Shown here piece by piece: positions 24,345 to 32,793 of a DNA stretch of 64,000 nucleotides. The notes beneath the pieces are model-generated. The model worked only from the letters and a program-made list of their open reading frames with translations. It did no database searches and was not told where the DNA came from. Numbering within the stretch: position 1 is the first letter of the stretch; each line of letters starts with the position of its first letter. Origin of the DNA: Bacteroidales bacterium (GTDB taxonomy: Bacteria; Bacteroidota; Bacteroidia; Bacteroidales; F082); assembly GCA_017394865.1 (NCBI GenBank), contig JAFPWT010000014.1:1-64000 (forward strand). The letters are read 5' to 3'. The translations under genes were made by a program, and so were the position numbers.

Positions 24345-25682
24345 ATGAAAAAAACATTTATTATCCTTTTTGCCATCGCTATGGTAAGCGTGACAAAAGC
24401 ACAAAGTTTACAAGAAACAGAAGCCAACCACATCCTCAACCGCTTTCTCGACTATGTCAAGATCGAGAGTCAATCCATTGACGATCCAGATCCTGAGTCT
24501 ATTCCCATGACCGAAGGTCAAAAGGAAATGGCTCAACATATCTTTAACGAGCTGAAGGCTATCGACAGGGACAACAAGACGGACATCAAGATGTCGCCCA
24601 ACTACTATGTTTACGTGAAAGTGCCATCAAATATGGGAAAAAAAGCGCCTTCGGTCATGTTCATGGCTCATTTGGACGTCACTCCCGAAGCCAACGCCAA
24701 AGGCATTCGTCCGCAAGTTCACTATAACTACGATGGATGCGACATCGCCTTAGGCAACGGACTGGTTTTAAGCCCGAACAATCCAGAAGGCGACCATTTG
24801 AAAGATGTCGTTGGCAAGACCATCATCACCACCGACGGTAATACGTTGCTAGGAGCCGACTGCAAGGCCGGTTGCACCATTTTGGTGACACTCTTCGAAC
24901 AAATGGTCAACGATTCAAGTTTCGAGCATGGCGATGTATACTTCACTTTCACGCAAAACGAGGAAGTGGACAAAGATGTCATGGGCATGGACATGAGCTA
25001 TTTTGATCGCATCCCGGACATCTTCTTCGATGTTGACGGCTCATATACCTACCAGTATAGCGTTTCCAACTTCACTGCAGAGGGACGCACCTACTTGTTC
25101 AAAGGCAACCAAGCCCACCCTGCAAAAGCTAAAGCTATGAGATATGCCGATGCCCTTACCGCATCAGGCTTTTTTATCGGCCAATTACCACCTGAGATTC
25201 ACCCCTCCTATTCGGAAGGGCGTCAGGGTTATGTGCATTGTTACAGTTTGGAGCCGCTGCCCAATGGACATGATATGCGTCTTCGTGTTCGTATCCGCTA
25301 TTTTGACAAAGCTGATGGCGAACGACTCAAAGCCGACCTTGACGAAGCCTATCGTAAAACGCGACAGGCCTTTCCTTTAGTCGAGATAGACCTCGAAAAC
25401 GACGCGCTACAATACGAAAACATCGCTTACACCATGCATCCTCAAGCTGTTAATGTGATCCAACGGGCAGCTGAAAAAACTGGAATAAACATGAAAGGCT
25501 TTGACTTGCGGGCGGGAACTACTGGAGCGTCGATGGTTGCCAAGGGTTTACCAGGAGGTCCTTGCCTCTACGGCGCGCAACAGGCATCACATAGTGTTTA
25601 TGAATGGTGCTGTCTTGAAGAAATTATGGAAATCATTAAATTGACATCCAATATTGTGACGGAAGTGAGCCTGCTTGAATAG
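24345..25682 (+). CDS. Exported PepT-like M20 peptidase (tripeptidase)
   Basis: 445 residues, related to peptidase T of family M20 but with an N-terminal signal peptide (MKKTFIILFAIAMVSVTKAQ), so periplasmic rather than cytosolic. Metal-site motifs are visible: MAHLDVTPEA (His and Asp), GNTLLGADCKAG (bridging Asp), FTQNEEVDKD (catalytic Glu), DVDG (Asp) and a late His in the segment QQASHSVYEW. The lid/dimerisation domain follows near 215. It should release N-terminal residues from short peptides. A long inverted repeat precedes its start codon. No TAnnTTTG box was found, so its promoter is unclear. Confidence 0.88.
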   Translation: MKKTFIILFAIAMVSVTKAQSLQETEANHILNRFLDYVKIESQSIDDPDPESIPMTEGQKEMAQHIFNELKAIDRDNKTDIKMSPNYYVYVKVPSNMGKKAPSVMFMAHLDVTPEANAKGIRPQVHYNYDGCDIALGNGLVLSPNNPEGDHLKDVVGKTIITTDGNTLLGADCKAGCTILVTLFEQMVNDSSFEHGDVYFTFTQNEEVDKDVMGMDMSYFDRIPDIFFDVDGSYTYQYSVSNFTAEGRTYLFKGNQAHPAKAKAMRYADALTASGFFIGQLPPEIHPSYSEGRQGYVHCYSLEPLPNGHDMRLRVRIRYFDKADGERLKADLDEAYRKTRQAFPLVEIDLENDALQYENIAYTMHPQAVNVIQRAAEKTGINMKGFDLRAGTTGASMVAKGLPGGPCLYGAQQASHSVYEWCCLEEIMEIIKLTSNIVTEVSLLE

Positions 25683-25691
25683 CCTCTTTGT

Positions 25692-27062
25692 TCATTTGTC
25701 GAAACAGCCAGTATGTTGGTCAAAATGACGAATAAGTTCATGGTCTTTAGCATTAGGCACAATATCTCCTTCGTTATTGTTTTTTGGAAAGTTGACTATT
25801 CCTATTTTGGCAAGGAATGAGCGTACTGTATTTGGAACAAAATAGTCGTGGCTGTTACTTGTTTTATAGACAACAAAATAGACATACAGGGGACAGGTGG
25901 CAAGACCGTTGTTAGATGAATCGATAACCTTGATGCGGCGTGGTGTGTCATTGATTAATGCTGCAGTGTAAGAGCTTGATTCAAGGATTACGTATGGGTG
26001 ATCAAAACGGTCGTCCCCTGTATGAAAACGCTCCGTCTTTATAGAGTCTGCCAATTTTGAATGAAATAAGGAATTGTACTTACGCCAGGTGGCACTGGTG
26101 TTTGCGGTCGTAGTGTATACATGAGTTTTTGTCAAAGTATCACTCTGTGTTTTTAGTAGAATCTGTAATAAAACTTCAGAATCAATCGAATCGTGTTGTT
26201 TGTGTTGTTCGAAGATGCTATCGAATTCTTCACTGTAAAGCACCTGCAACGGGCTTTCTCCTATCTCTATTTCAGCAAGATAGCCAATTGTCGACCTAAA
26301 TTTTTCTTTAGATTCCTCATTCATTATTTGGTTAGCATCAAACTTTTCAGCGGACATCAAAACCAAATAATAATCTCGAGAACTCTCTTTAGTTAGTGCG
26401 CCAATACTGATTTCTTCTGTCACGACAGACCACGCAGCCGTGCTTGCCATAGGCATATTGATGGTATTGTTCAAAGCCCCAGGAAAAGTGTTTTGGATGT
26501 ATCCTTTCACCGAACCACCTCCAAACAGTATCAGTTTAGGTTTGTCTCTCAACAGGCCATGCATGGCAAATCCCACGATAGACAAAACCACTAAACCTAT
26601 TACGATCTTTCCTATGTGTCGCCGAAAAGGTTGAGAGGTCTTCATGTGCTCAAAAAGCCTTTTATAAAAACCATCATAATAATCGCTGCTATAAGGTACC
26701 CCGTTTTCGCGCTTTACTTCAATAATGTCAACCGGGAGTTTCTGCTGAGGCCACTCAAACTCGGGTAACATGACAGGAATGATGTTTTTTCCAAGTTTTA
26801 TGGCATACGCCAATTCCATACGCGCCCAATCGTTTTCGATAGGAGTGCCGGCAAGTGTGCGGTCAAAGAAATTCTTGTCAAGGATGACGATGAAGTCTTT
26901 GCTTTGTTCGATGTTCTTAAGGATTATTTCATCAAACTTACCACCTCGCAAAGAGGTCTTGTCCATAAAAACCTTATAACCATCATTTCTTAATCTTGTT
27001 GCAAGAAGCTCTGCCTCGTTATAACCACCTTCGTGCCGATAACTGATGAAGACACCACCCAT
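25692..27062 (-). CDS. TIR-transmembrane-PstS-like receptor protein
   Basis: 456 residues from MGGVFISYRHEGG. Residues 1-140 are a TIR domain: VFISYRH strand A, VFMDKTSLRGG BB-loop region, DFIVILDKNF, and WARMELAYAIKLGKNIIPV with Glu83 in the NADase catalytic position. One membrane helix spans about 151-170. Residues 175-456 look like a periplasmic binding fold (KPKLILFGGGSVKGYI, MASTAAW, late CPLYVYFVVYK) resembling PstS-type proteins. The TIR would be cytosolic and the binding domain periplasmic, a receptor-like layout. It may hydrolyse or cyclise NAD when the outer domain is engaged (inference). It has its own -7 box at 27085-27092. I know no named family with this order. Confidence 0.75.
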   Translation of the reverse strand: MGGVFISYRHEGGYNEAELLATRLRNDGYKVFMDKTSLRGGKFDEIILKNIEQSKDFIVILDKNFFDRTLAGTPIENDWARMELAYAIKLGKNIIPVMLPEFEWPQQKLPVDIIEVKRENGVPYSSDYYDGFYKRLFEHMKTSQPFRRHIGKIVIGLVVLSIVGFAMHGLLRDKPKLILFGGGSVKGYIQNTFPGALNNTINMPMASTAAWSVVTEEISIGALTKESSRDYYLVLMSAEKFDANQIMNEESKEKFRSTIGYLAEIEIGESPLQVLYSEEFDSIFEQHKQHDSIDSEVLLQILLKTQSDTLTKTHVYTTTANTSATWRKYNSLFHSKLADSIKTERFHTGDDRFDHPYVILESSSYTAALINDTPRRIKVIDSSNNGLATCPLYVYFVVYKTSNSHDYFVPNTVRSFLAKIGIVNFPKNNNEGDIVPNAKDHELIRHFDQHTGCFDK

Positions 27063-27084
27063 ATCATACAGTTTAATTACAGCA

Positions 27085-27092
27085 CAAAAATA
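27085..27092 (-). promoter_or_regulatory. -7 box for the TIR gene
   Basis: The minus strand reads TATTTTTG, 22 bases before the start at 27062, in the 107-base gap after the membrane-protein gene. Confidence 0.6.
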
Positions 27093-27169
27093 CATTTTTT
27101 CCGATAAACTGCTGATAGATTTACATGGGTTGAAAGTTTCGCCCCTTGCGTTTAATACTGCTGCTCAAT

Positions 27170-28072
27170 TTAGCCATTTTGCTCCATGAATAGACTCTTG
27201 ACGTCTACATAGCCTTTTGGTGATAGTTTATACTTTTGTATTTTCCAGGTGTCAGCTGCTTCTTTATAACGCAAGATATAGAAACAGCCGTCAAAGGCTT
27301 GTAATTGAGGCAGATCGGGAAACTCAGCACGTACAGCATCGTATTCGGAGATGTTATCAACAATAAGGGAAAGCTTTTCTTTAAAAGACAGCGACTTCCC
27401 TAATTCCCATTTGCAGGGTTCTGTATCACATACCCGTAGGAATATCTCAGAGGCTTTAAGAATCAACTCCTCCACCTCTTGTTTCCAGGTTGATTCACTA
27501 ATATAGATTCTTGTGGCGCCATAAGGGGCATCGACCTCATTCGGAAGACCGACAGCATATAATTTAGGAAATCCCACTTTAGCCACAAGTCTCGCAAAAT
27601 CCTTCTCGGAGAAATTTGAAGCGTCTTGATCCGATCTGAATGCGCGCAAATAGAGCGAAAAATGTCTGTTGCTGGATAATAGTTCTTTTGACACCACTGT
27701 AGAAATATTACCTCTATTCTTGTTAATGCTCCTCGTCATATTGACAAACATCACAAAGATGATGGTTACCAATGATAACAGAGCAGAATCTGCCCAATCG
27801 CCTTGAAGGTATCCCAAAACAACAATAACACCTATCACACATATTGCAATAACAACAGAGTAGATAATAATGGTAAGTGATATCCTATTATTCTTCAATT
27901 GTTTCCTTGCGAGCACGGTCTCTTTCAGGTTTGACCGAGAGTGTTTTTCGATCTTTTTCTTCGTGAAAGCTTCCTCTTTTGAGAGAAGTTTGGAAAGCCA
28001 CGAACTCAGCAAAGCAGATAATAAGATAATTACAATTCTTGTTATTATCCTACCATATCCAATAGCACTCAT
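27170..28072 (-). CDS. Three-helix membrane protein with a YLRAF-type soluble domain
   Basis: 300 residues. Membrane helices lie at about 8-27, 65-87 and 95-112, with a basic loop between the first two. The soluble part (about 135-300) carries YLRAFRSDQD at 141-150, then VGLPNEVDAPYGATRIYI, STWKQEVEELILKA and a late WELGKSL. This order (LRxF-D, then a GxP loop, a W-xxxV helix and WEL) suggests an alpha/beta nucleotide- or TIR-like fold, which I cannot name. It sits between the peptidase-RyR gene (48-base gap, no promoter box seen) and the TIR gene, so it is probably part of the same unit. Function unknown. Confidence 0.65.
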   Translation of the reverse strand: MSAIGYGRIITRIVIILLSALLSSWLSKLLSKEEAFTKKKIEKHSRSNLKETVLARKQLKNNRISLTIIIYSVVIAICVIGVIVVLGYLQGDWADSALLSLVTIIFVMFVNMTRSINKNRGNISTVVSKELLSSNRHFSLYLRAFRSDQDASNFSEKDFARLVAKVGFPKLYAVGLPNEVDAPYGATRIYISESTWKQEVEELILKASEIFLRVCDTEPCKWELGKSLSFKEKLSLIVDNISEYDAVRAEFPDLPQLQAFDGCFYILRYKEAADTWKIQKYKLSPKGYVDVKSLFMEQNG

Positions 28073-28120
28073 ATTAAAATAGTATATTCTCTAAGAAAGG
28101 ATGTCGTCAAGCTGGAAACA

Positions 28121-29104
28121 TTATGGCATCTTGATTTCAAATCCTAGTTTCTGGATTAGCTTAAGCGTTCGCATGGCTGTTTGACGATCGTATTCTTTTT
28201 CGCTGTCGGGAAGGGCGCAATAAGGAACAAGGTCAGGATTCTCTTTCTTTTTGTCATTGCGACGTGGTCCCCACTTCCATCCTTCTTTAATACGATTAAC
28301 GGCCCAAACATCATGCGCGTTTTCAGCGATGGCTTCTTGAAGTTCGAGGAGGATGTCAGACAAGGCAACCTCTTCGGTTTCTATAGGTTCGGGTTCGTAT
28401 TCGTGAAGGTCGTTCAAGACACGAACGATATAGTTGTGGGAGTCGTTCCAGGCATTTTGGAAGAAAGCCAAAGGAATAGAGACCTCGGCGTTTTTCTTGG
28501 GATCGAAGATGGAAACGGTTTCCTCTTCAACATTGATACCAGTGACCACAACGGCATGGTTGACATTTTCGTCAATAAAAGGTTGTTCAACATAGAGTTT
28601 TTCGATGTCGACAGCCACAATGATATCATTGTCAAGGGCGAGAATACGGACGAGGTCATCAATGGTGGCATCGTATTTTCGGGTTATCAGTAGGTCTTTC
28701 AAGGCTAGTAGCTGCCCTATAGCATAAAGCGGTGTCCCCTCGGTTTTAAGCCAATTTTTCTCGCGGGCTGTTTTAATAAGTTCTTTGAATTCGAAAGGAA
28801 TGCCACGGCGTTTGAGAATATAGCCTTCACAGGCTACACTGCATATATTTTCATCGTCTTTGGCAGCGAGTTTCCGCATGGGAAGTATGTTGCTTTGTAG
28901 GGTTATGATTCGGATGGGCTTTTCTTCCAATTCAAATTCCGGCATGCCGCCGTTCTTTTTCATCTCTTTGTCTACAGCTAGAGAAATCTTAACCATTTCT
29001 CGTAATGTTGCATCTGTCTTGATGGCTTGAAGCACTTGCAGTGTCTGTTTCTTATTGGTTTTGCCTTCCAAATAGGCGGCAAGCAATTCTTCTGATATCT
29101 TCAT
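28121..29104 (-). CDS. Anti-sigma-like N terminus + C39-like cysteine peptidase + RyR domain protein
   Basis: 327 residues from MKISEELLAAYLEGKTN. Residues 1-50 are helical and resemble the start of Bacteroidota anti-sigma factors without zinc ligands. Residues 80-230 look like a papain/C39-type peptidase: ENICSVACEGYILKRRG with Cys88, NHAVVVTGI with His183, VSIFDPKK with Asp201, and a NAWNDSHNYIVRV end. Residues 262-325 are a RyR domain: HDVWAVNRIKEGWKWG, LVPYCALPDSEKEYDR, LKLIQKLGF. RyR domains in prokaryotes are proposed sensors in nucleotide-based conflict systems. The start is one base from the sigma-factor stop, so the two are coupled. There is no signal peptide or membrane helix, so it is cytosolic. 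Confidence 0.8.
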   Translation of the reverse strand: MKISEELLAAYLEGKTNKKQTLQVLQAIKTDATLREMVKISLAVDKEMKKNGGMPEFELEEKPIRIITLQSNILPMRKLAAKDDENICSVACEGYILKRRGIPFEFKELIKTAREKNWLKTEGTPLYAIGQLLALKDLLITRKYDATIDDLVRILALDNDIIVAVDIEKLYVEQPFIDENVNHAVVVTGINVEEETVSIFDPKKNAEVSIPLAFFQNAWNDSHNYIVRVLNDLHEYEPEPIETEEVALSDILLELQEAIAENAHDVWAVNRIKEGWKWGPRRNDKKKENPDLVPYCALPDSEKEYDRQTAMRTLKLIQKLGFEIKMP

Positions 29105-29105
29105 T

Positions 29106-29672
29106 TTATCTTTGTTTTTTGTATTTCTTGATGTCCTTAAGAGCAACCAGCGTAAGTTGTTTTATTGCTCGTTTCTTTAAATTGTATAGGTTGGCAATTT
29201 TGATGTTCATTTCAGCAGCCAGTTCTTCAGGAGGAACGTCTTCGAGGATCAGCTTTTCTATTACATAGGCATATCGTTTGCTAGACATTGCCGCCAGTAG
29301 CCGTTCCACGTCCATGCTTGTTTCTATGGTGTTTTCTAGTGTCGTATCGTTACCTTCTTTTTTAGCAGGAGTCTCCTTGCCCCCTGGAACTATCAGTCGG
29401 TCGTGATTTTTTTTATCCAAGAAATAGCGGATGGCAACAGTTTTAAGCCAGCCATACAAGGAGCTGCTAAATTTGAAAGTTTTCAAACGACGCGCATCAT
29501 TTTCCATCAAGTGTTGGTACAATTCATTGACAAACTCATTGTAATCCATTTGATAATCAAACACATTGCGTATAATAGATTGAAACAAAGGCTTGCAGTG
29601 TTTGAAGAAAAACTCCTGCGTCACCCGGTTGTCTCGGTCAATAAGTTTTTGTATGATTTCTTTGTCGGTCAT
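29106..29672 (-). CDS. ECF-like sigma-70 family factor
   Basis: 188 residues from MTDKEIIQKLIDRD. Region 2 is seen as CKPLFQSIIRNVFDYQMDYN and LYGWLKTVAIRYFLDKKNHD; region 4 as YAYVIEKLILEDVPPEELAAEM followed by the recognition helix NLYNLKKRAIKQL. No region 1.1 or 3, so it is an extracytoplasmic-function-size factor that would direct RNA polymerase to specific promoters. The ORF extends 12 codons upstream, but ATG 29672 follows the -7 box at 29696-29703. It is directly coupled to the peptidase-RyR gene, which occupies the usual anti-sigma position. Confidence 0.87.
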   Translation of the reverse strand: MTDKEIIQKLIDRDNRVTQEFFFKHCKPLFQSIIRNVFDYQMDYNEFVNELYQHLMENDARRLKTFKFSSSLYGWLKTVAIRYFLDKKNHDRLIVPGGKETPAKKEGNDTTLENTIETSMDVERLLAAMSSKRYAYVIEKLILEDVPPEELAAEMNIKIANLYNLKKRAIKQLTLVALKDIKKYKKQR

Positions 29673-29695
29673 ATGACTTTTGTTTGTTTTGGCTT

Positions 29696-29703
29696 CAAAG
29701 ATA
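29696..29703 (-). promoter_or_regulatory. -7 box for the sigma factor operon
   Basis: The minus strand reads TATCTTTG, 23 bases before the start at 29672. Confidence 0.65.
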
Positions 29704-29728: not shown

Positions 29729-29835
29729 TTGTTTTTAAAAACCGGTGATAGATTTTTTTGACAACAAGCATATTATGAGTGTTGATCATAATCAAAATCA
29801 AACGACACACGATAAATCCTAAAAAACTAATTGTT

Positions 29836-30309
29836 ATGAATAAACTATTATTTCCATTACTGGCCGTTGTAACAGCCGTCCCCATTCTGTGGTTTTTCGA
29901 CATCAGAATACAGGCATTGTTGTGGCTTTCACTCGTGATTTCTATTTTGTTACTGGCTTTTAGATATCTAGTGCTAAGGAAAGTGGTAAAGAGCTACGAA
30001 CTTTCAGAAGACGATGAACTTTTCAGTTCAAATTTGTCCCCCCTTCTGTTTACGCTGAATGGGATCGGAACCAGATTTTACGGCTCTTTCCGTCAAGAAA
30101 AGGATTTATACGTCACCTATGAATTTTTGTGTGTACTCTTTATTCCCGTTATCCCGATCGGGTGTTACTTGGTTTCGGATATGGAAGATGGTTCCTACAA
30201 GATATACGGTAAGCTGACCCGTAGAAGGTATGAGTGTACCGATATTTATTTGAAATGGTACGGATGGCTGGGATGCGCTCTCTCTGTGTTGTTTTTGGTT
30301 ATTGGATAA
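29836..30309 (+). CDS. Small membrane protein of unknown function
   Basis: 157 residues from MNKLLFPLLAVVTAVPI. Two N-terminal membrane helices (about 3-20 and 25-45) are followed by a soluble middle section (LNGIGTRFYGSFRQEKDLYVT), a hydrophobic strand LCVLFIPVIPIGCYLVSD, and a C-terminal helix. The IGTRFYG...FIPVIPIGCY pattern recalls a family of small Bacteroidota membrane proteins with no known role. It is divergent from the sigma-factor operon with a 163-base gap, in which no clear + strand promoter was found. A link to the sigma/TIR genes is possible only by position. Confidence 0.6.
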   Translation: MNKLLFPLLAVVTAVPILWFFDIRIQALLWLSLVISILLLAFRYLVLRKVVKSYELSEDDELFSSNLSPLLFTLNGIGTRFYGSFRQEKDLYVTYEFLCVLFIPVIPIGCYLVSDMEDGSYKIYGKLTRRRYECTDIYLKWYGWLGCALSVLFLVIG

Positions 30310-30439: not shown

Positions 30440-31165
30440 TTATTTCTCTTTCACATTAGTAATCCACTCCCAATGATTCTCCACTACCCATTCCATTGGG
30501 TAAATCTTTTCTTTCCAGGTGTCAATGTAAAAGAATTGACTTCCTTTCATGCCAAAACAATAGCCGAGTTCCCAGGAAATATAACGAACCTCAGGACCAC
30601 CATCATGGTGAGTAAATGTTGGATAATGAAACACAAAGTCTATTGTATCAGATTTGAAAAGAGTCCCAAGGAAATCGTTTTCCTCTGCTTGGAAATTTCT
30701 ATCAATAAAGTAACCGAATGAACTAGGTGTATCGCTGATAGAATATGATTTATTGTTTACAGTGTCGAAAATAAAAACGTCATGCGCGAACATGTAATAA
30801 TTTATGAGAACTTTTCCTTGTTCTTTTAACTCAACCCAATCTTCCAAAAACTCTCCACTGACAAAATAATTTTTACTGAATTTATTGGTGTCAACAAGAT
30901 TTAAACAAGGTTCTTTATACAAAACGAAATTAAGACCCGAACAAGTGTCGTGACAGTTGTAAATTTCATGGATTACACAATCTTTCGATTCAAAAGGATG
31001 AATATATTCTCCCATGATAGGAATATAGGCAGAATCCAATTTCGACATAATGAATTCATGCTGTTCTTTTACCAACGCAGAATCCACAATCCTTTCAAGG
31101 AGTATTTGGGCATTGGCAAATACCGAACAACACATCAAGGCGAATAATACACAATATTTTCTCAT
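30440..31165 (-). CDS. Exported protein of unknown function
   Basis: 241 residues with a signal peptide (MRKYCVLFALMCCSVFANAQ). The mature part has five Cys, including a CHDTC motif near residue 70, and aromatic-rich beta segments (YFVSGEFLEDWVELKEQG, VLINYYMFAHDVFIF). I do not recognise a family. Composition is AT-rich like the neighbouring TIR/sigma region. It has a -7 box at 31193-31200 and is divergent from glnA. A periplasmic location is likely. Confidence 0.6.
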   Translation of the reverse strand: MRKYCVLFALMCCSVFANAQILLERIVDSALVKEQHEFIMSKLDSAYIPIMGEYIHPFESKDCVIHEIYNCHDTCSGLNFVLYKEPCLNLVDTNKFSKNYFVSGEFLEDWVELKEQGKVLINYYMFAHDVFIFDTVNNKSYSISDTPSSFGYFIDRNFQAEENDFLGTLFKSDTIDFVFHYPTFTHHDGGPEVRYISWELGYCFGMKGSQFFYIDTWKEKIYPMEWVVENHWEWITNVKEK

Positions 31166-31192
31166 GGTTGGGTTATTCTCAACATTCTAACG

Positions 31193-31200
31193 CAAATTTA
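31193..31200 (-). promoter_or_regulatory. -7 box for the exported orphan gene
   Basis: The minus strand reads TAAATTTG (TAnnTTTG), 27 bases before the start at 31165. Confidence 0.55.
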
Positions 31201-31231
31201 CAATTATTTCCGAAACATCCCAATTTTTTAT

Positions 31232-31239
31232 TATATTTG
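31232..31239 (+). promoter_or_regulatory. -7 box for glnA
   Basis: TATATTTG, 42 bases before ATG 31282, giving a short leader. Confidence 0.65.
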
Positions 31240-31281
31240 CCTCCCCAATCACAAAGGACAACTATTCTAAAAAATATCGTA

Positions 31282-32793
31282 ATGGATCAACGCATTGCAA
31301 TGAACCCCAACCTGCTGGTTCAGTACCTTCAGAAACCGGCAGCTGAATTTACCCGCGCCGACATCATCCGCTACTGCGAGGAAAACGAAATCGAATTCGT
31401 GAACTTCCACTATTGTGGGTGGGACGGCAAACTCAAAACCCTCAATTTCGTCATCCACAGCGCCGAACATCTGGAGAACATCCTCTCTGCCGGCGAGCGT
31501 GTCGATGGCTCCAGCCTCTTCCCCTTCATCGAAGCCGGAAAGAGCGACCTCTACGTGGTGCCGAAGTACAAGACGGCCTTCCGTAACCCCTTCTCCGAGG
31601 TGCCGACCCTCGACATCCTCTGCTCTTTCTACAACCGCGACGGCGAGCCCTTCGAGAGCTCACCGGAGTACATCCTCCGCAAGGCCCACCAAGTGTTCAA
31701 GAAGACCACGGGTCTCGAGATGCAGACCATGGGCGAGCTGGAATACTACATCATCGCCGACGATGAACAGATCTACGAAGTGCCCGACCAGCGCGGCTAC
31801 CATGAGAGCGCCCCGTTCAACAAGTTTACCGAGTACCGCGTGGAGGCCATGCGCCTTATCGCCCAAGCCGGCGGCTTGATCAAATACGGTCACTCCGAGG
31901 TGGGTAACTTCACCCACGACGGCAAGATCTACGAGCAGAATGAAATCGAGTTCCTGCCCACCAACATCGAGGACGCCGCCGACCAGTTGGTCGTGGCCAA
32001 GTGGATCATGCGCCAGTTGGCCTACCAGTACGGCGTGGTGCTGACCTTCGCCCCGAAGATCACTGTGGGCAAGGCCGGTTCAGGCATGCACGTGCACTGC
32101 AAGTTCACGAAGAACGGTAAGAGCGTGATGGTGGAAAAGGGCGAACTCAGCGACTATGGCAAAAAAGCCATCGCCGGTTACATGGATGCCGGCACCTCGC
32201 TGCCTGCCTTCGGCAACCCCAACCCGCTGTCGTTCATGCGTCTGGTGCCGCATCAGGAAGCCCCGACATCCCTCTGCTGGTCGTACAGCAACCGCAGCGC
32301 CCTGGTGCGCGTGCCGCTGGGCTGGATCAACAACGGCAAGGACATGGTGGCCGACTGCAACCCGCTCGAGAAACGTTCGAATCGCGACTTCAGCGACAAG
32401 CAGACCTTCGAGTGGCGTGCCTCCGACGGCTGCGCCGACATGTACCTGCTGATGGCTGCCCTCTGCGCCGCCGCACGTCATGGCTTCGAGATGCCCGATG
32501 CCCTCAAGGTCGCCGAAAAGACCTATGTCGGCCTCGGCGTGAACATTCACGATGCCAAGAACAAGAAGGTGCAGGAAGCCCTCGAACAGCTGCCTGACAG
32601 CTGTGTGGCCGCCGCCAAGGAACTCAAGAAGGATCGCAAGATCTATACCGACAAGGGCGTGTTCTCCGATGCCATCATCGACTACATGATCAAGTACCTC
32701 AGCGACTTCAAGGATGCCAACCTCCGCAAGGAATTAGGCAACGATACCGAGAAGATCATGAAACTTGTGAATGAGAATATCCACGTCGGGTAA
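31282..32793 (+). CDS. glnA: Glutamine synthetase
   Basis: 503 residues. It makes glutamine from glutamate, ammonia and ATP in the cytosol. The N-terminal beta-grasp domain (FVNFHYCGWDGKLKTLNF) is followed by catalytic-domain motifs: MGELEYYII (metal Glu), IEFLPTNIEDAADQ, GSGMHVHCKF and a SYSNRSALVRVPLGW arginine region. Its length is longer than the ~470 residues of classical GlnA. No adenylylation-site tyrosine motif was recognised. ATG 31282 (MDQRIAMNPN) follows the promoter; an in-frame start 38 codons upstream is not used. Codons are strongly C-ending, consistent with high expression. Confidence 0.93.
   Translation: MDQRIAMNPNLLVQYLQKPAAEFTRADIIRYCEENEIEFVNFHYCGWDGKLKTLNFVIHSAEHLENILSAGERVDGSSLFPFIEAGKSDLYVVPKYKTAFRNPFSEVPTLDILCSFYNRDGEPFESSPEYILRKAHQVFKKTTGLEMQTMGELEYYIIADDEQIYEVPDQRGYHESAPFNKFTEYRVEAMRLIAQAGGLIKYGHSEVGNFTHDGKIYEQNEIEFLPTNIEDAADQLVVAKWIMRQLAYQYGVVLTFAPKITVGKAGSGMHVHCKFTKNGKSVMVEKGELSDYGKKAIAGYMDAGTSLPAFGNPNPLSFMRLVPHQEAPTSLCWSYSNRSALVRVPLGWINNGKDMVADCNPLEKRSNRDFSDKQTFEWRASDGCADMYLLMAALCAAARHGFEMPDALKVAEKTYVGLGVNIHDAKNKKVQEALEQLPDSCVAAAKELKKDRKIYTDKGVFSDAIIDYMIKYLSDFKDANLRKELGNDTEKIMKLVNENIHVG

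Follow-up and report, generated by a model that had tools for sequence, protein, structure and literature searches.

A TIR-associated sigma factor/C39-RyR gene pair of Bacteroidales as a possible second-messenger-controlled sigma switch

The first 64,000 nucleotides of contig JAFPWT010000014.1 from a Bacteroidales bacterium (assembly GCA_017394865.1), hereafter the window, carry four minus-strand genes at 25692–29672. They encode, in order, a sigma factor, a protein combining anti-sigma-like helices with a C39 peptidase domain and an RyR domain (C39-RyR), a membrane protein termed YLRAF and a membrane TIR protein. A preliminary description had placed four such genes in 25692–29703, and all four are real. 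We consider it highly probable that the sigma/C39-RyR pair is a genuine, undescribed TIR-associated signalling module. The locus as a whole may represent a second-messenger-controlled sigma switch, a complete scheme whose chances we put just short of even at most. This reading is drawn from sequence, predicted fold and co-occurrence, namely, a sigma gene placed before an anti-sigma-like/C39/RyR protein and nearby TIR genes that retain a Glu at the catalytic position.

A sigma gene lies directly upstream of the C39-RyR gene in 23 of 25 distinct C39-RyR loci, and TIR genes accompany the pair far more often than expected. In a test covering 15 genomes, with Pfam TIR_2 as the basis for counting TIR genes, a TIR gene lies within 10 kb of C39-RyR in 10 of 15 loci, against 0.40 expected at random placement (P = 2e-13; 9/14 without the window, which prompted the analysis and is included). 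By contrast, none of 11 C39 loci without RyR has one within that distance (Fisher test, 7e-4). In the wider set, searched with an iterated TIR profile (E under 1e-6), TIR is present in the fetched flanks of 19/25 C39-RyR loci and of 1/19 control loci, which have sigma and C39 without RyR (Fisher test, 2e-6); flank lengths are unequal and some contigs are short, including those of controls L070 and L071, so that the locus samples are not equal-sized, and a match at E = 1e-3 in control L062 was not counted. The sole control with TIR, L162, has an RyR gene ~13 kb away. Furthermore, the only TIR found in genome G378 sits 3.4 kb from C39-RyR. Thus, the neighbourhood of RyR, sigma and TIR genes for which the preliminary description had suggested a search is borne out. 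The 25 loci were obtained after removal of duplicates of G-handle loci (L174, L176, L180, L182, L186, L188, L189 and L193), and both L177, whose contig ends inside C39 and which has two TIR genes, and L181, a 3 kb contig, were left out of either set. Some near-redundancy persists, as the C39 domains of L192 and L194 are identical and L184 nearly duplicates L185; L054 encodes a pair of C39-RyR proteins of which one lacks a sigma gene of its own. L178 was included by hand and stands outside the residue counts below, which draw on 24 loci and 25 proteins; on inspection by eye, its residues agree with them.

The TIR partners of C39-RyR vary and include fusions to WD40, FGE-sulfatase, PfkB, and transglutaminase plus kinase domains, as if many TIR-borne sensors fed one receiver. 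A fixed four-gene cassette was rejected, since all four gene kinds occur together in only 3/25 loci (the window, L055 and L155), YLRAF itself is confined to 3/25, the order is kept in two and the TIR partner varies. What stands of the four-gene set proposed earlier is its recurrence in the same order in L155, which belongs to a different taxonomic family; there, YLRAF is longer (571 aa), and a transglutaminase-kinase protein of 907 aa carries the TIR as a C-terminal domain that is partial and sub-threshold. In L052, which carries the closest relative of the window C39-RyR, the downstream neighbours appear housekeeping-like by eye and the contig stops short on the upstream side. Such variation in gene content and order would suit an explanation in which TIR, YLRAF and the sigma/C39-RyR pair are separate systems sharing a defence or variable island, as would the type I methyltransferase and DpdF-like helicase found flanking islands L190 and L191, and the M20 peptidase gene that borders a different RyR/TIR island in genome G332, pointing to a variable site. 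We find this rather improbable, because it fails to explain why TIR occurs in just one of the 19 control loci. Gene order could also accommodate a scheme in which TIR genes are outputs, the sigma factor driving their expression and RyR sensing an upstream metabolite: TIR genes are downstream on the same strand in several loci (e.g. L157 and L159), and wiring is not readable from order. This scheme deserves very little credence, given that the sigma gene has TIR genes on its upstream side in L053, L175 and L187.

The RyR domain of the window protein (residues 238–327; 28124–28393, minus strand) matches Pfam RyR (PF02026) with 107.2 bits against a cut-off of 27.4 (E = 5e-31) and, among PDB matches, is 50–53% identical to the B. 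thetaiotaomicron RyR structure 3nrt and its mutants. A 2015 paper reportedly proposed prokaryotic RyR as a nucleotide sensor. According to a 2026 preprint, phage RyDEP binds and cleaves 2'/3' cyclic ADP-ribose (2'/3'cADPR) using His75, Trp78, His100 and Asp117, and six of eight tested homologues bound these signals, with only RyDEP cutting them (PMC13232231). Mapped by spacing, RyDEP itself not being part of the alignment, these residues correspond to His264, Trp267, Asn289 and Asp306 of the window protein. Across 25 C39-RyR proteins the His, Trp and Asp are each present in 25/25, and the third position is His in 12, Asn in 8, Thr in 3 and Ser in 2. Moreover, the Glu at the TIR catalytic position is retained in 29/29 alignable TIR proteins of C39-RyR loci, the remaining one of 30 not being alignable there. 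The TIR association, the retained pocket residues and this Glu together make the first half of the earlier idea, a link from TIR to RyR, well supported by genomics, and we lean slightly towards the RyR domain reading a TIR product.

The likeness to RyDEP nevertheless extends to the His/Asp dyad, which is catalytic there and retained in 25/25 aligned C39-RyR proteins. Together with the stand-alone RyR genes frequent in the same islands, it would fit a role of RyR as a sponge or enzyme that removes a TIR signal, with C39 and sigma answering something else. We judge this quite improbable, since fusion to a peptidase inside a sigma operon is an odd setting for a mere sink, a pattern-limited search of viral contigs gave 23 pattern matches, none of them encoding anything related to the C39 part, and the homologues tested besides RyDEP did not degrade the signals (PMC13232231). 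As the dyad is retained, self-limiting cleavage of the ligand by C39-RyR is possible, by analogy with CalpL, the Calp sensor being able also to destroy its own ligand (PMC11417357). As a separate observation, two phage records from human faeces, MT836850.1 and MT837259.1, contain unannotated RyR matches 57% and 53% identical to the window RyR, which are candidate RyDEP-type sponges.

The C39-RyR protein (28121–29104, minus strand) is a soluble protein of 327 aa that lacks a transmembrane segment, and its gene starts right after the sigma stop codon. Its N-terminus (residues 1–50; 28955–29104) forms anti-sigma-like helices, placed by the model at residues 5–12, 18–30 and 32–50. Such helices are visible by eye in 21/23 aligned C39 proteins, including ones with quite different C-termini; being common to C39 kinds that differ at the other end, they are read as the anti-sigma part, and the variable C-terminus of sigma-linked C39 proteins would be the sensor. 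The two proteins without helices, L054 7365–8201 and that of L070, likewise have no sigma gene directly upstream, L070 lying at a contig start. Sub-threshold zf-HC2 matches fall in the helices of two relatives (E = 0.008 and 0.01). The peptidase domain (residues 83–234; 28403–28858) scores 22.4 bits with Pfam C39_2, under the cut-off of 24, and its predicted fold is clearly papain-like C39 with Cys88, His183 and Asp201. ComA-type C39 peptidases cleave their substrates behind a Gly-Gly pair. A double-glycine site was rejected here, as the one Gly-Gly in the window linker is not shared by those aligned relatives that were inspected. We give an even chance to the C39 domain freeing sigma by cutting the anti-sigma part.

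C39 relatives without RyR are mostly paired with a sigma gene too, and some have a membrane segment plus a carboxypeptidase-regulatory-like domain in place of RyR. The latter arrangement, next to sigma, was noted in L062, L063, L064, L066–L069, L164 and L167 (Pfam checked for L062, L164 and L167) and is perhaps an envelope sensor. Another sigma/C39 branch without RyR (L061/G259, L065/G322 and L071/G273) stands beside Hsp70-like ATPase genes, named by eye, and long unknown proteins, and is possibly another conflict-type system.

The sigma factor (29106–29672, minus strand; 188 aa, ATG start, start and stop checked) is assigned to the extracytoplasmic function (ECF) type by its score with NCBIfam TIGR02937 (sigma70-ECF), 42.9 bits and thus equal to the cut-off of 42.9 (E = 3.8e-11). 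It also matches a PHROGs sigma factor (E = 2e-7), and its matches to Pfam sigma regions 2 and 4 fall under their cut-offs. About 24 bp before the ATG, TATCTTTG (29696–29703, minus strand) fits the housekeeping -7 box consensus of Bacteroidetes, TAnnTTTG. This box is the only promoter element tested statistically: among RyR-type loci, 9/21 have TANNTTTG within 70 bp upstream of sigma, where mononucleotide shuffles give 1.19, and among other loci 2/18 have it, where shuffles give 0.58. Since the sigma operon is preceded by a housekeeping-type promoter match, the switch would be held ready; we take this to mean that it is expressed in readiness and not mainly self-driven.

The TIR protein (25692–27062, minus strand; reading frame open from 27095) consists of a TIR domain, one transmembrane segment and a C-terminal domain, TIRC. 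The TIR domain (26727–27053; TIR_2, E = 2e-15) contains W-A-R-M-E, whose Glu (codon 26814–26816) occupies the catalytic position; the Trp of W-x-x-x-E is Trp in 21, Phe in 4, Tyr in 3 and Val in 1 of 29 aligned TIR proteins. TIRC (25695–26540), presumed to lie outside the membrane, is found in four distinct proteins, the window's and three others, each beside RyR or RCK-like genes. The TIR-TIRC form is limited to the window and L054, and the N-termini of the two remaining proteins, L118 7899–9500 and L160 5934–7367, are not recognisable as TIR, so that TIRC proteins are suggested to form a receptor-like family with exchangeable inner domains. None of the four gives a meaningful Pfam match, a PDB sequence match is likewise lacking, and structure modelling was unsuccessful, with a mean predicted local distance difference test (pLDDT) of 36. 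By eye, the SGT...Y and VYF stretches resemble PstS, with no backing from Pfam, PDB or the model, and the PstS-like receptor label given to this protein earlier is left unconfirmed. The other parts named at that time, namely, sigma, C39 fold, RyR, a YLRAF protein with three hydrophobic regions and TIR with one transmembrane segment, all hold. The YLRAF protein (27170–28072, minus strand) has a domain with seven invariant positions (L, R, F, W, V, W and E) in seven relatives and finds neither a Pfam match nor a credible PDB match. A TIR-like fold for this domain was rejected by profile comparison, which gave 0.4% probability. Outside C39-RyR loci, YLRAF occurs in one TIR/RyR island (L109) and in three loci without TIR or RyR (L113, L114 and L115).

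These parts would be connected as follows. A trigger acting on the outer domain or through the membrane would cause the membrane TIR protein to convert nicotinamide adenine dinucleotide (NAD+) into a cyclic ADP-ribose isomer, whose binding by the RyR domain would activate the C39 domain. The activated peptidase would cut off the anti-sigma helices, in cis or in trans, and the released sigma factor would launch a protective transcription programme. Stand-alone RyR proteins of related islands may sponge or destroy the signal and thereby end the response.

Several observations weigh against this scheme. L192 and L194 have no recognisable sigma gene upstream of C39-RyR, and TIR is absent from the fetched flank in six of 25 loci; in four of these (L022, L052, L058 and L154) the contig ends near the pair, whereas L178 and L179 are uncut. 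The window RyR keeps three of four RyDEP pocket residues, with Asn replacing the phosphate-binding His. The anti-sigma label rests on position and on weak, sub-threshold matches of relatives, the window protein itself giving no Pfam match to zf-HC2. No conserved cleavage site was seen in C39-RyR proteins, and a by-eye reading of upstream stretches revealed no promoter motif for the freed sigma. Finally, the structure matches include repeat 12 of human RyR3 with ATP, ADP and AMP-PCP, and, as animal RyR repeats bind ATP and ADP, the RyR domain may recognise an ordinary adenine nucleotide. The locus would then be an energy- or NAD-stress sigma switch in which RyR reads ATP, ADP, ADP-ribose or NAD loss and TIR proteins are NAD-depleting toxins sensed indirectly. 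The variable third pocket residue and the C39-RyR loci without nearby TIR would agree with such a switch. We nonetheless regard it as unlikely, because the RyR-TIR link is strong and missing in C39 relatives without RyR, which favours a TIR-specific ligand.

The scheme with a TIR-made messenger resembles the CRISPR-associated CalpL/CalpT/CalpS system in that a nucleotide messenger, a sensor-protease, anti-sigma cleavage and ECF sigma release, proposed here, follow one another (PMC11417357). Calp relies on SAVED-Lon and Cas10, whereas RyR, C39, a one-protein anti-sigma/protease and a proposed TIR messenger-maker take their place here; since the messenger-protease-anti-sigma-sigma logic already exists in Calp, the locus would represent known logic in new parts. 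Thoeris, composed of TIR ThsB and a ThsA-type effector, likewise has a TIR with catalytic Glu, and an NAD-derived messenger is proposed in both; it differs in that transcription is the proposed output here, and a PADLOC search of the four proteins, the two unknown genes beyond them being unscanned, gave no ThsA match, with NCBIfam ThcB4 scoring 36.9, far under its cut-off of 220. RyDEP shares the PF02026 domain with His, Trp and Asp at +0, +3 and +42 (PMC13232231), but the window version is fused to C39 and anti-sigma-like helices among chromosomal genes, with Asn for the phosphate-binding His, and is thus not a phage-encoded, single-RyR protein. EACC/TRADD-N conflict systems are similarly coupled to an ECF sigma factor, but use caspase and effector-associated domains, and the terms RyR, C39 and M48 do not occur in the text of the paper on them (PMC8195603). 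In the searchable literature, outside which most subscription papers lie, we found nothing that connects a sigma factor and TIR with RyR or cADPR, in agreement with the earlier remark that no described system has these parts.

Within the locus, C39-RyR and YLRAF are ~50 bp apart and YLRAF and TIR 75–107 bp. As the preliminary description had noted, the locus is AT-rich relative to its surroundings, with 40.8% G+C against 49.8% in the remaining window; the low-G+C stretch extends past the operon to ~31 kb. Its most AT-rich part, ~35% G+C, holds two unknown genes, one divergent from the sigma gene (29779–30309, plus strand) and one at 30440–31165 (minus strand), which have no Pfam family and no relative among the loci compared. 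Beyond them lies a gene that is glutamine-synthetase-like by eye (31168–32793, plus strand), and the other flank is an M20/M42-type peptidase gene (24345–25682, plus strand). The latter and its 83% identical counterpart (L054 2042–3379) border two different RyR/TIR islands in two species, so that the place beside it looks like a variable insertion site.

The sigma/C39-RyR pair is carried by Bacteroidales bacteria, many from animal guts. In the family of the window, the C39 part is matched in 19/173 genomes (E up to 1e-3) and C39-RyR is present in 10/173; full-length C39-RyR occurs in 6/393 genomes drawn from the order, window included, and a sample of 395 genomes from the phylum contains none besides the window's (E = 1e-12). 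An alignment-based scan of named genomes recovered 21 loci whose titles name Bacteroidales, Bacteroidia or lower groups, and a single-protein query of the same contigs gave no match. Pattern-limited scans of viral contigs found no copies of C39 or TIRC. The C39-RyR tree mixes taxonomic families, for example L055 (f1) with L155 (f26), which suggests spread by horizontal transfer.

Related islands hold further components. Large RCK/TrkA-like membrane proteins with a C-terminal RyR (L022 7836–10313, L157, L179, L191 and others), often with TIR and stand-alone RyR genes, could be a bacterial analogue of ligand-gated ryanodine channels. A profile detected RCK-like membrane proteins with RyR at their end in 9/25 loci, and one more was recognised by eye in L178; Pfam Slo-like_RCK is just over its cut-off in L179 and just under in L157, and the majority of the proteins scanned give no RCK match. 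An M48 peptidase accompanies a zinc-ribbon protein, U167, in 8/25 C39-RyR loci. By profile search, the window has none of RCK-like-RyR, M48, U167 and stand-alone RyR. Tentatively, and with chances well short of even, we propose that RyR originated, or serves widely, in Bacteroidales as a native receptor for TIR-made cADPR isomers, wired here through a peptidase/anti-sigma protein to a sigma factor, which would make it the first transcription-answering TIR pathway, and elsewhere to RCK-type membrane proteins, with stand-alone RyR as an off-switch.

TIR immunity is known mainly for killing through NAD loss or effector activation. If the proposed scheme is correct, it would add a transcriptional branch to TIR immunity and provide a natural bacterial receptor for 2'/3'cADPR, which would explain why RyR proteins were at hand as phage sponges. 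A one-protein sensor/peptidase/anti-sigma would constitute a compact part for synthetic circuits. Moreover, an old question would become open to test, namely, whether the ryanodine receptors of animals and bacterial signalling proteins have a cADPR-type pocket in common.

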